Shown here: positions 41,817-45,702 of the stretch, piece after piece | Layout of the letters: each line of letters starts with the position of its first letter | How positions within the stretch are numbered: the first letter of the stretch is position 1 | Origin: Candidatus Neomarinimicrobiota bacterium | GTDB lineage: Bacteria; Fidelibacterota; Marinisomatia; Marinisomatales; S15-B10 | Direction of reading: 5' to 3' | DNA: 50,347 nt | NCBI GenBank assembly: GCA_030743815.1 | Contig: JASLRT010000014.1 | Span: 1-50,347, forward strand | Notes under the pieces: generated by a model | Seen by the model: only the letters and a program-made list of their open reading frames with translations | The model's database searches: none | Told to the model about the DNA's origin: nothing | Program-made: the position numbers and the translations under genes

Positions 41817-42158
41817 CTAGCGCCGCTCCTTGATCCTGGCAGCTTTGCCTTTGAGCTTTCTCAGATAATAGAGTTTGGCCCGCCTGACCTTCCCGCGACG
41901 AACAACATTAACGCTTTCGATGTTAGGCGAGTGGAGTGGAAAGATTGTTTCAACACCTACATTGGATGCGATTCTTCTGATGGTAAAAGTAGAATTTGTT
42001 CCACTCCCTTTTTTCGAAAGGACAACACCTTCAAAGCGTTGAGTCCTCTCTCTTCCGCCTTCAACGATTTTTACACTTACGGCAACCGTGTCGCCGGCGC
42101 GAAAATGTGGGATATCACTTCTTTCCTGATCTTGCGATAATTCGTGTGCCTGAACCAT
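41817..42158 (-). CDS. rplS: Ribosomal protein L19
   Basis: A 113-residue 50S subunit protein at the inter-subunit interface. It has the conserved [28 protein letters not shown] segment and the [28 protein letters not shown] end. It is the last gene of the ffh-rpsP-khpA-trmD-rplS operon, nine bases after trmD. There is nothing unusual in its length. Confidence 0.97.
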
Positions 42159-42167
42159 TTTTCTACC

Positions 42168-42878
42168 TCACTTCGAAATCTCTTCCTGATATCGTTTCCA
42201 GAGATCAGGACGACTCTTTTTCGTTTTTGCCTCTCTCTTGGCTTTACGCCACTCTTCAATCCTGGCGTGATGACCACTCAATAGAACATCCGGCACCTTC
42301 GCTCCTCTTACCTTTTCCGGCCGCGTATAATGGGGATGATCCAGAAGCTGATGGGTGAAGGAATCGCTGGTAGCAGAATCGTGATCTCCCAAAACTTCCG
42401 GGATCAGTCTTACTACCGAATCAAGTATTACCATGGCGGGGAGTTCACCGCCTGTCACCACATAATCACCAATGGATATCTCGTCAGTGACTTCCATCTC
42501 CCTGATCCGTTCATCCATCCCTTTATAGTGTCCGCAGATGAATACCAAAGCTTCCTCCCTGGAAAGATCCCAAGCTTTTTCCTGGGTCAGGATCTCACCC
42601 TGGGGTGTTGGAAAGATTATTCTTAGGGCACCTTTACCTTTATAATCAGAGCGCACATGATCCATCGCCTTCAGTATCGGTTCCGCCATCATCACCATGC
42701 CCGTACCGCCACCAAAAGGATAATCATCGATCTGCCGGTATTTACCTTCAGTGTATTCCCTGATATCAACAGTATGATATGCCACGATGCCCTTCTCACC
42801 GGCGCGGCGAAGGATACTCTCCCCAATGATGGCTTCTACCATTTTGGGGAAAGGTGTCAAAATATATATCTGGTTCAT
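42168..42878 (-). CDS. trmD: tRNA (guanine37-N1)-methyltransferase TrmD
   Basis: Methylates G37 next to the anticodon and prevents frameshifting. It has 236 residues. It belongs to the SPOUT knot family, with the opening ILTPFPKMVEA, FGGGTGMVMMAEPIL, and the SAM-binding knot YVVTGGELPAMVILDSVVRLIPEVLG. It comes directly after khpA; the usual rimM gene in between is missing. Confidence 0.97.
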   Translation of the reverse strand: MNQIYILTPFPKMVEAIIGESILRRAGEKGIVAYHTVDIREYTEGKYRQIDDYPFGGGTGMVMMAEPILKAMDHVRSDYKGKGALRIIFPTPQGEILTQEKAWDLSREEALVFICGHYKGMDERIREMEVTDEISIGDYVVTGGELPAMVILDSVVRLIPEVLGDHDSATSDSFTHQLLDHPHYTRPEKVRGAKVPDVLLSGHHARIEEWRKAKREAKTKKSRPDLWKRYQEEISK

Positions 42879-42904
42879 CTCTCGTATACTTCTTAAGGAG
42901 ATTT

Positions 42905-43138
42905 CTACTCTACGATTTCCAGCAGCGCGCGCTTGCCGCCCCCCTTGGCGCTGATGGCTGATATAAAAGTTCGGAGAGCACCTGCCGTTCTGCCGCGCTT
43001 ACCGATAACCTTACCCAGATCACCATCGCCAACGCGCAATTCATAAATAATGGTTCGTTCGCTCTCCACTAGTGTTACTGTAACTTCATCTGGTTTATCC
43101 ACCAATTCCTTCACAATCCGCTCTATGAGATCTTCCAT
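42905..43138 (-). CDS. khpA: KH-domain RNA-binding protein KhpA
   Basis: A 77-residue single KH-domain protein (YlqC/KhpA family). The RNA-binding GxxG loop is in GKVIGKRGRTAGALRTF. In Gram-positive bacteria KhpA pairs with KhpB and acts in RNA regulation and cell elongation. It is placed between rpsP and trmD, its standard position. Confidence 0.93.
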   Translation of the reverse strand: MEDLIERIVKELVDKPDEVTVTLVESERTIIYELRVGDGDLGKVIGKRGRTAGALRTFISAISAKGGGKRALLEIVE

Positions 43139-43180: not shown

Positions 43181-44359
43181 TCAACTATCTGTCTTCTTTT
43201 TAGACTCTTTCTTTTTCTTCGCTTTCTCTTTTTCCTCTTTGGCCTCTATCTCCTGTTCCTCAACTTCCTCAACTTCAACTTTTTCCTCAACCTCAGCTTT
43301 CTCTTCCGGCTCAATTACAGCCTCCGCCTTATCCTCAGCCTCAGTTTCGGCTTCTACCTCTTCCTCGACTTCAGTTACCTCTTCCGGCTCTGCCTCTTCT
43401 TCCTCATTCTTTACCTCAGTTTCTTTTTCATCTGTCGCAGCTTCCTCTTCCGGTTCTTCTTCTGCCTCAGCTTCAGGTTCTAACTTTTCTTCAGCCTTAG
43501 CCTCAACCTCCGCTTCGGCTTCTTCATCGGCCTTAGTTTCAACCTCAACCGTCTCTTCCGGCTCAGTAGCTTCTTCCACTACTTCACCCTCCTCAGCTTT
43601 TTCTTCCGGCTTTGCCTCAGCTTCAGTTTCTACCGGCTCTTCCGTATCAGTTTCCCCATCTGGTTTTTCTTCCTCTGCTCCAGCTTCCCCCTGAGTCGCC
43701 AGTTCTTCTTCTGTCTCTTCTTCTTTTTCGACTTCGGCCCCTTCCTGAGTCTCGACCTTCTTTTCTTCCTTTGTCTCGGGCTCTTCTTCTACCTCAGCTT
43801 CAGGTTCTACCTTCTCCTCAGCCTTAGCCTCAACTTTCTCTTTTGGTTCTTCCTTAGCCTCAGACTCAGCCTTAACCTCCTCTTCCGGCTCAGTTACAGC
43901 CTCAACTTCCTCTTTCGGTTCTTCCTTAGCCTCAGACTCAGCCTTAGCCTCTGCTTTTACCTTGGCTTCCGCTTCCGCCTTCTCCTTGGCTTCTGCTTTT
44001 GCCTTCGCCCTCTCTTCAGCTTTCTTCTTAAGTCGCTCATCCCTATCCAGCGACCATTTCTGGATTTCGTGATCGATAGCTTTCTCATCTAACCCCTGTT
44101 TCATCAGATGCCAGCGATAGGACAATCCAGACTTCTTCATCAGATTCTTCACGGTATCGGAAGGCTGTGCACCTTGTTGCAGCCAATGAATCAGGCGGTC
44201 ATCTTTGAGGGAGAAATTATCTTCGGTCTTGATGGGGTCGTACCACCCCACCTCCTCGATGGCGGCGCCGTCCCTTTGCCGGCGGGAGTCTATCACGATT
44301 ACCCTGAAAAAGGGTCGGTTCCGTCTTCCCATCCGTTTCATTCTTATCCGTGTAGCCAC
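43181..44359 (-). CDS. rpsP: Ribosomal protein S16 with a giant acidic C-terminal extension
   Basis: A 392-residue protein, about four to five times the usual 80-90. Residues 1-83 are an ordinary S16 (MATRIRMKRMGRRNRPFFRVIV, VGWYDPIK, GAQPSDTV). Residues 84-115 form a basic helix. Residues 116-372 are low complexity, dominated by Glu, Ala, Lys and Val, and strongly acidic. The last 18 residues turn basic (KEKAKKKKESKKKTDS). Internal repeats are visible at protein and DNA level. No stop or frameshift interrupts it, and flanking genes are in their normal order. Some FCB bacteria have S16 tails, but this length is striking. Confidence 0.93.
   Translation of the reverse strand: MATRIRMKRMGRRNRPFFRVIVIDSRRQRDGAAIEEVGWYDPIKTEDNFSLKDDRLIHWLQQGAQPSDTVKNLMKKSGLSYRWHLMKQGLDEKAIDHEIQKWSLDRDERLKKKAEERAKAKAEAKEKAEAEAKVKAEAKAESEAKEEPKEEVEAVTEPEEEVKAESEAKEEPKEKVEAKAEEKVEPEAEVEEEPETKEEKKVETQEGAEVEKEEETEEELATQGEAGAEEEKPDGETDTEEPVETEAEAKPEEKAEEGEVVEEATEPEETVEVETKADEEAEAEVEAKAEEKLEPEAEAEEEPEEEAATDEKETEVKNEEEEAEPEEVTEVEEEVEAETEAEDKAEAVIEPEEKAEVEEKVEVEEVEEQEIEAKEEKEKAKKKKESKKKTDS
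43453..43507 (-). repeat. Repeat within rpsP extension, copy B
   Basis: A 55-base segment matching 43780-43834 with about five mismatches. It encodes the block AKAEEKLEPEAEAEEEPE, a close copy of AKAEEKVEPEAEVEEEPE 110 codons away. Confidence 0.8.
43780..43834 (-). repeat. Repeat within rpsP extension, copy A
   Basis: Partner of the 43453-43507 segment. The copies lie 327 bases apart, an exact multiple of three, so the reading frame is kept. Confidence 0.8.
43845..43874 (-). repeat. 30-base direct repeat within rpsP extension, copy 1
   Basis: Identical over 30 bases to 43917-43946, with a period of 72 bases (24 codons). It encodes KAESEAKEEP, consistent with in-frame duplication. Confidence 0.85.
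43917..43946 (-). repeat. 30-base direct repeat within rpsP extension, copy 2
   Basis: The second identical copy, 72 bases from the first, encoding the same KAESEAKEEP block. Confidence 0.85.
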
Positions 44360-44370
44360 TGTTTACTCCT

Positions 44371-45702
44371 TCAGTTTAATATTCCGGCAAACTGGTTTAC
44401 CGCCTGCCGGTTCGGTTGCTGTTTAGATAGACTCTTCATCATCTTTTTCATCTGTTGAAATTCTTTTAACAGTCGATTGACATCCTGTATGGGCCTGCCG
44501 CTGCCCACGGCAATCCGCTTGCGACGACCTCCATCGATGATCTCTGGATGTTGCCGTTCTTTCGGCGTCATAGAATTGATGATGGCATCAGTCCAGACAA
44601 GCTGCCGCTCATCGAGCACGGCACCTTTCATCATTTTACCCATGCCCGGGATCATACCCATCAGCTCGCTCATAGATCCCATCTTCTTCATCTGTGTCAT
44701 TTGAGACTGAAAATCCTCCAGGGTAAAACTGGCCTTGCGCAGTTTTTCGGCCATCTTTGCCGCTTCATCTTTGTCTATAGCCTCTTCAGCCTTCTCGACG
44801 AGGCTCACCACATCTCCCATACCGAGGATTCTATCAGCCATCCGCTGCGGATGGAACGGCTCAAGCCCGCTCATCTTCTCACTCGTGCCGATGAATTTAA
44901 TGGGAACTTTGGTCATTGCGGTGATGGAAACGGCGGCTCCACCCCTGGCGTCGCCATCCATTTTGGTAAGAATTGTGCCGCTAATCTCAAGGGCGGCGGA
45001 AAATGCCTGAGCTGAATTGACGGCATCCTGCCCCGACATTCCGTCAGCGACGAAAAGAACTTCTGTCGGTCCAGTCGCTTCAGCAATAGTAACAATTTCT
45101 TCCATCATTTCACTATCCACATGCAGTCGGCCGGCGGTATCGAGAATAACAACATCGTACTTCTCATTACTCGCTTTCAGAATTCCGTCTTTGCAGATTC
45201 TAACAGGATCTTGATGACCCTGGCTCCAAACAGGAACGTCAATCTCACCGCCGAGAATTTCAAGCTGTTCAATAGCCGCAGGACGGTAGACATCCGCCGC
45301 CACCAGGTAAGGTTTCTTCCCCGCCTTCTTCATATAACTCGCCAGCTTGGCCGCAGTAGTTGTCTTGCCCGATCCCTGAAGTCCTGCCATCAAGATCACC
45401 GTCGGAGGTTTGTTGGCGAATCGGAGCGGTTCGTTGTGCTGGCCCAAGAGCCCCGCAAGCTCATCACGAACAATCTTGACAAACTGCTGCCCCGGCACAA
45501 CAGAATTGGTGACAGACGTCCCTTTGGCCTTTTCCGTCACCTTCTGGACAAACTCCTTGGCTATCGTGTAGTGAACGTCTGATTCCAAAAGCGCCTTGCG
45601 AATCTCGCGTCCTGTTTCGCTGACGTTCTTTTCCGTTATCTTGCCGAGACCGCGAAGGTTGCGGACTATTGCACCAAACCTGTCTTGTAGTTCTTCAAAC
45701 AT
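44371..45702 (-). CDS. ffh: Signal recognition particle protein Ffh
   Basis: The GTPase of the signal recognition particle, which sends nascent membrane proteins to FtsY and Sec. It has 443 residues. N domain, then G domain with G1 GLQGSGKT (107-114), DTAGRLHVD and TKMDGDARGG. A Met-rich M domain follows (SQMTQMKKMGSMSELMGMIPGMGKMM). It is the first gene of the rpsP operon, 11 bases upstream of rpsP. The 4.5S RNA gene was not found in the window. Confidence 0.97.
   Translation of the reverse strand: MFEELQDRFGAIVRNLRGLGKITEKNVSETGREIRKALLESDVHYTIAKEFVQKVTEKAKGTSVTNSVVPGQQFVKIVRDELAGLLGQHNEPLRFANKPPTVILMAGLQGSGKTTTAAKLASYMKKAGKKPYLVAADVYRPAAIEQLEILGGEIDVPVWSQGHQDPVRICKDGILKASNEKYDVVILDTAGRLHVDSEMMEEIVTIAEATGPTEVLFVADGMSGQDAVNSAQAFSAALEISGTILTKMDGDARGGAAVSITAMTKVPIKFIGTSEKMSGLEPFHPQRMADRILGMGDVVSLVEKAEEAIDKDEAAKMAEKLRKASFTLEDFQSQMTQMKKMGSMSELMGMIPGMGKMMKGAVLDERQLVWTDAIINSMTPKERQHPEIIDGGRRKRIAVGSGRPIQDVNRLLKEFQQMKKMMKSLSKQQPNRQAVNQFAGILN

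Follow-up and report, generated by a model that had tools for sequence, protein, structure and literature searches.

The tails of ribosomal proteins are usually thought to be basic and to bind RNA. Long versions of the small-subunit protein bS16 have been described in Bacteroidota, where it has 188 amino acids in F. johnsoniae (7jil) and 192 in P. gingivalis (9i5v), and where the NCBIfam family NF011094 spans 186 positions. The distal part of S16 is absent from the models of the solved Bacteroidota ribosomes, with 85 residues modelled in 7jil and 97 to 118 in P. gingivalis (Foldseek), in keeping with tails that are disordered or removed. The bS16 of Actinobacteria also extends past the core, giving proteins of 147 amino acids in C. 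acnes, 156 in M. smegmatis and 162 in M. tuberculosis. For C. acnes, binding of the extension to uS4 has been described, together with a short h17 (PMC10085706).

Here, we analyzed the S16 protein encoded in the window, the whole stretch of 50,347 nucleotides that forms contig 14 of a Neomarinimicrobiota draft genome (2.11 Mb in 123 contigs, about 97% complete). The nearest named relative is UBA1134 (Candidatus Neomarinimicrobiota/Marinimicrobia), with a 95% match over the S16 region. S16 tails of other FCB phyla were compared through solved structures and NCBIfam only. Like the Bacteroidota proteins, the S16 of the window has a core, then an extension and then an Ala/Glu-rich tail; unlike theirs, the S16 of this phylum can reach twice the length, is much more acidic and varies widely in length. 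Its score against NF011094 was 111.1 bits, aligned over positions 1 to 182, versus a cut-off of 209, which, judged from the sequence, places it in a related architecture outside that equivalog. Shorter S16 tails are known from Bacteroidota and Actinobacteria, and the acidic, length-variable tail described here is an extreme form of these; a literature search found no paper on S16 tails in Neomarinimicrobiota.

The rpsP locus and the anatomy of its product

The rpsP gene occupies positions 43181..44359 on the minus strand and encodes bS16 with a C-terminal extension, 392 amino acids in all, from a GTG start and without an internal stop. The product has a single PF00886 match (E 3.3e-24; 82.8 bits versus a cut-off of 27) and reaches 101.8 bits against TIGR00002 (cut-off 45.3), which makes it a member of the bS16 family. 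A profile search found this to be the only S16 gene in the whole genome, as is usual for the single-copy bS16. The gene lies in a trmD-type operon, ffh-rpsP-khpA-trmD-rplS, all on the minus strand: ffh (SRP54; 44371..45702; PF00448 and others) upstream, and khpA (KH domain; 42905..43138; PF13083), trmD (42168..42878; PF01746) and rplS (bL19; 41817..42158; PF01245) downstream. Since Pfam confirmed these normal neighbours, we consider the gene to be the true rpsP and not a stray copy. The first-pass annotation had described a normal S16 core that continues in one long uninterrupted frame, and this description was confirmed.

In many relatives, the rpsP operon also encodes the 30S maturation factor RimM, which is absent from the gap between khpA and trmD (42878-42905) in the window. 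Searches with PF01782 and TIGR02273 found no RimM anywhere in the window's genome (G000) or in G001, G003, G011, G024, G013, G025, G023, G033 and G039, several of these ten genomes being 90 to 98% complete. RimM is present in relatives of the same family, and it looks as if the gene has been lost repeatedly within the phylum. A link between the tail and the loss of RimM was considered and rejected, as genomes with RimM and genomes without it both have S16 tails across the whole range of lengths.

The S16 extension can be divided into an arm that is conserved and an acidic tail that is variable, which the first-pass annotation had merged into about 300 residues of low-complexity sequence. The core (residues 1-80; 44120..44359, minus strand), delimited by Pfam, conservation and charge, is basic, with a net charge of +7. 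It is followed by the charge-balanced arm (residues 81-118; 44006..44119, minus strand), which begins with YRWHLMKQGLDEKAIDHEIQKW and lies in a confidently predicted long helix spanning residues 91-141. The entropy profile showed that the stretch from about residue 78 to 118 is not of low complexity and is kept across the phylum; W82, H83, L84, Q87, G88, E97, K100 and W101 were invariant or nearly so among 60 sequences. The variable acidic sequence begins past about residue 110 to 118, and there the earlier description held. Its main part (residues 143-350; 43310..43933, minus strand), defined by composition, pLDDT and dN/dS, is 46% Glu, has a net charge of -79 and is predicted to be disordered. 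The protein closes with a Glu/Lys-rich end that has a Lys-rich tip (residues 351-392; 43184..43309, minus strand). The Lys-rich end was noted before and is indeed present in this protein, but it is not conserved: at least six Lys among the last 25 residues were found in only 14 of 67 complete tails in the phylum, so that it is a local feature.

An AlphaFold model built on a 60-sequence alignment was confident for the core and placed a long helix at residues 91-141, with a pLDDT of 94 to 98 for the block up to residue 130 and of 78 for residues 131-140. The modelled core had the S16 fold, with TM-scores over the target of 0.8 to 0.9 against many solved S16 chains. Across most of residues 154-345, the pLDDT was below 50. 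The model also placed a helix at residues 350-390. Structure predictors often assign helices to Glu/Lys-rich sequence, and we therefore give this last helix little weight. The distal sequence thus combines predicted disorder with a charge-rich, hydrophobic-poor composition that is conserved at variable length, as in acidic disordered tails, and the acidic C-terminal arm proposed earlier can be regarded as real in that it is predicted to be disordered and is kept in relatives.

A hidden C-terminal domain or fusion was also considered and rejected, since Pfam recognized S16 only and the model held nothing but helices and disorder past the core; what the first-pass annotation had called a fusion is instead an extension without a second domain. 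Past the helical arm, the conservation profile of the relatives held no motif shared among the distal tails, a finding that speaks against a single, fixed protein partner of that part. The first-pass annotation had suggested that such an arm might bind assembly factors, ribosomes or cations and might be processed once translated. By sequence, no further copies of the S16 tail were found elsewhere in the genome.

Distribution and constraint across the phylum

A search for S16 was positive in 54 of 61 relatives and, across the phylum, in 178 of 220 genomes. The open frames listed ranged from 111 to 466 codons, some of them cut by contig ends, and all were longer than normal S16. The phylum loci yielded 91 different S16 genes, of which 67 were complete. 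In all 67, the protein continued past residue 83 by 54 residues or more, with a median of 163 and a maximum of 377. Close relatives with a normal S16 were looked for, and no tail-less S16 was found among these 67 complete distinct genes, which include those of streamlined genomes of about 0.8 to 1.0 Mb. The tails (beyond residue 110) were net negative in 62 of the 67, with a median of -28, and neutral or slightly positive in the other 5; the median net charge of the core was +8. Beyond residue 130, the residues FWYILMC made up a median of 1.2%, which leaves the tails without an aromatic or hydrophobic anchor. Alignment of the relatives showed that the composition of the tail is conserved but its length, which ranges from 54 to 377 residues when counted from residue 83, is not.

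Several genomes with a tailed S16 bear names such as AG-426 and similar, which we take to be those of single-cell assemblies. Because of these names, chimeras formed by binning do not explain the tail. The long S16 tail is a phylum-wide trait, neither an assembly error nor unique to the window.

The tail codons behave as coding sequence. The 67 complete genes together have 9,711 tail codons, and none of these is an in-frame stop, versus 371 and 1,332 stops in frames +1 and +2. Comparison with the sister species gave a dN/dS of 0.03 for the core, 0.03 for the arm (residues 81-110) and 0.19 for the tail (residue 111 on), in proteins that differ in length by 112 residues (392 versus 280 amino acids). 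Since aligners favour matches in low-complexity sequence, a control with shuffled tail codons was run on six pairs. In these pairs the tail dN/dS was 0.12 to 0.47, and the tail pN was 0.10 to 0.18, compared with 0.34 to 0.48 after shuffling.

A higher tail dN/dS of 0.68 was obtained for one pair of draft genomes, L022 and L023, in which the end of one frame looks shifted. Such a shifted end of the S16 frame was seen in L022 and in L035; in L035, Glu/Ala/Pro repeats pass into Leu/Lys-rich sequence, as if the repeat were read in another frame. The cause could be an indel introduced by sequencing or a genuine frameshift.

We then compared single-base changes in the tails with the synonymous-site rate in 29 independent pairs; the neutral rate was taken from synonymous sites only, and the ratios are therefore rough. 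Relative to expectation, E-G (0.09), E-Q (0.08), K-N (0.14) and K-R (0.17) exchanges were strongly depleted, and E-K (0.68), E-D (0.61) and A-V (0.54) exchanges weakly so. The depletion of E-Q is not due to the aligner, because the usual matrix rewards E-Q pairs. In the tails, changes that remove a charge or introduce Gly, Gln or Asn are strongly disfavoured, while residue order and, in part, the sign of single charges are loosely held.

Tandem arrays make up 28% of the tail DNA, and 85 of 90 arrays have a period divisible by three, which indicates that gains and losses of in-frame repeats make the tails longer or shorter. Tandem Repeats Finder detected two in-frame duplications in the window's gene (no strand assigned), one in the tail at 43803..43884 (period 42 bases, 80% match) and one in the distal helix at 43960..44006 (period 24 bases, 86% match). 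As far as sequence comparison can tell, the tail is coding and under selection, with its length free and its composition constrained.

Acidic proteins elsewhere in the genome

As a proteome control, we analyzed 1,416 gene-like open reading frames from 1.72 Mb of sequence, 81% of the 2.11 Mb genome. The most acidic 100-residue segment belonged to S16, with 53% E+D, and the lowest-entropy segment, masked sequence aside, was also that of S16. Most small basic ribosomal proteins in the same 81% of the genome had no comparable tail.

Two other proteins share the tail design. The first is bL25 (Ctc/TL5 type; L215:1403-2101, plus strand, contig 67), a ribosomal protein which also carries an acidic low-complexity C-terminal tail; unlike S16, it belongs to the large subunit, and its tail has about 50 residues. 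The second is a DUF4295-like protein of 152 amino acids (L217:637-1092, minus strand, contig 69), in which a small basic N-terminal part is followed, as in S16, by an acidic tail, here of 90 residues with a net charge of -35. Homologues were found in 28 of 41 genomes, and in five sequences, including those of the relatives L292, L293, L296 and L298, the tails had 90 to 192 residues and were 39 to 45% acidic. We take DUF4295 to correspond to bL38, a ribosomal protein of Bacteroidota. The bL38 proteins of F. johnsoniae and Borrelia are located at H95 of the 23S rRNA (PMC10618245). The DUF4295-like protein is a different protein from S16, its Pfam match is weak (E 0.0073, below the cut-off), and it is possibly, on the basis of its sequence, a bL38-like protein with a putative ribosomal role.

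On contig 76 (L224:3092-4718, minus strand), two adjacent open reading frames with signal-peptide-like starts contain very acidic, Phe/Gly-rich low-complexity stretches such as EEFFGEDEGFFDEGEEEFG. Both products are probably exported.

Possible roles of the arm and the tail

We tentatively favour, at somewhat less than even odds, the idea that the tail works as a disordered brush, acting through its charge, on the solvent-exposed side of the 30S body. The predicted helical arm would carry the tail off that side, and the tail would act as a polyanionic brush in which charge and lack of structure, rather than a particular sequence, do the work. Such a brush would repel nucleic acids and neighbouring ribosomes, so that ribosomes stay soluble and spaced, and it might also hold cations; bL25 and the DUF4295-like protein would add smaller parts of the charged fringe that the ribosomes of this phylum probably wear. 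The idea is favoured by the extension of all 67 complete S16 proteins and the net negative charge of 62 tails, by the conservation of composition without that of order or length, by the scarcity of FWYILMC residues together with predicted disorder and in-frame repeat growth, by the tail design shared with bL25 and the DUF4295-like protein, and by the solved Bacteroidota ribosomes, which model 85 to 118 of 188 to 192 S16 residues. On the other hand, the 5 neutral or slightly positive tails show that charge is not absolute, the E-K ratio indicates weak constraint on whether a given charge is positive or negative, which counts against a brush, and a brush by itself does not explain the strong conservation of the proximal arm.

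A tail that can be as much as about four times as long as the core, with about -80 charges, and that is kept phylum-wide even in streamlined genomes points to selection on the outer charge of the ribosome itself in Neomarinimicrobiota. The free length and conserved composition make a clear, testable case for a disordered region whose function would depend on bulk electrostatics. It is conceivable, if doubtful, that selected and repeat-remodelled disordered tails on bS16, the DUF4295-like (bL38-like) protein and bL25 form a phylum-wide acidic corona that alters ribosome packing, nucleoid contact or hibernation.

It is also rather unlikely, though still a serious competitor, that the tail is a built-in chaperone. 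The acidic tail would fold back on the basic core of free S16 and block aggregation and wrong binding to RNA or DNA until S16 takes its place on the 5' domain of the 16S rRNA, and on the finished ribosome it would be a bystander. The opposite charges of core and tail (medians of +8 and -28) are consistent with this proposal, as is the long acidic tail that follows the small basic N-terminal part of the DUF4295-like protein; moreover, DNA-nicking and cruciform-binding activities have been reported for E. coli S16 (review PMC10931766). However, 300 residues and -80 charges far exceed what is needed to neutralise +7, and most small basic ribosomal proteins in 81% of the genome manage without such a tail.

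Growth that is merely tolerated appears improbable. Repeat slippage would lengthen the exposed end of the frame, and selection would remove only sticky or aggregating forms. The large difference in length between the sister species (392 versus 280 amino acids) and the share of tandem arrays in the tail DNA would fit such a process, but a tail-less S16 is missing from all 67 complete genes, even in the streamlined genomes, and the tail dN/dS is well below 1.

There is a small chance, which applies more to the arm than to the tail, that the extension would be a structural strut, making the 30S body stiffer by binding uS4, with the acidic distal part as an appendix. In favour of a strut are the conservation and predicted helical structure of the proximal arm and the binding of uS4 by the extension in C. 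acnes (PMC10085706). That extension, however, is 65 amino acids long and is paired with a short h17, whereas the V3 stretch between the 338 and 534 marks, and with it h17, is of full length in 15 relatives (192 to 199 bases), and the tail here is mostly acidic and predicted to be disordered. The logic of C. acnes therefore does not carry over, and compensation for h17 of that kind was rejected; a strut also leaves the long acidic part unexplained. A 16S gene was not found in the assembly of the window's genome. The 16S rRNA of one relative, G014 (L143), has a V3 that is 6 bases shorter (192 versus 198 in other relatives), with an ACAATG-like sequence deleted after the 338 mark, which may be an assembly error.

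Finally, an assembly error or frameshift that added non-coding sequence to S16, as might be feared in a 123-contig draft because repetitive DNA assembles poorly, has practically no chance of explaining the tail, given the same architecture in independent genomes of the phylum, some of them single-cell-like by name, and the uninterrupted reading of all 9,711 tail codons.
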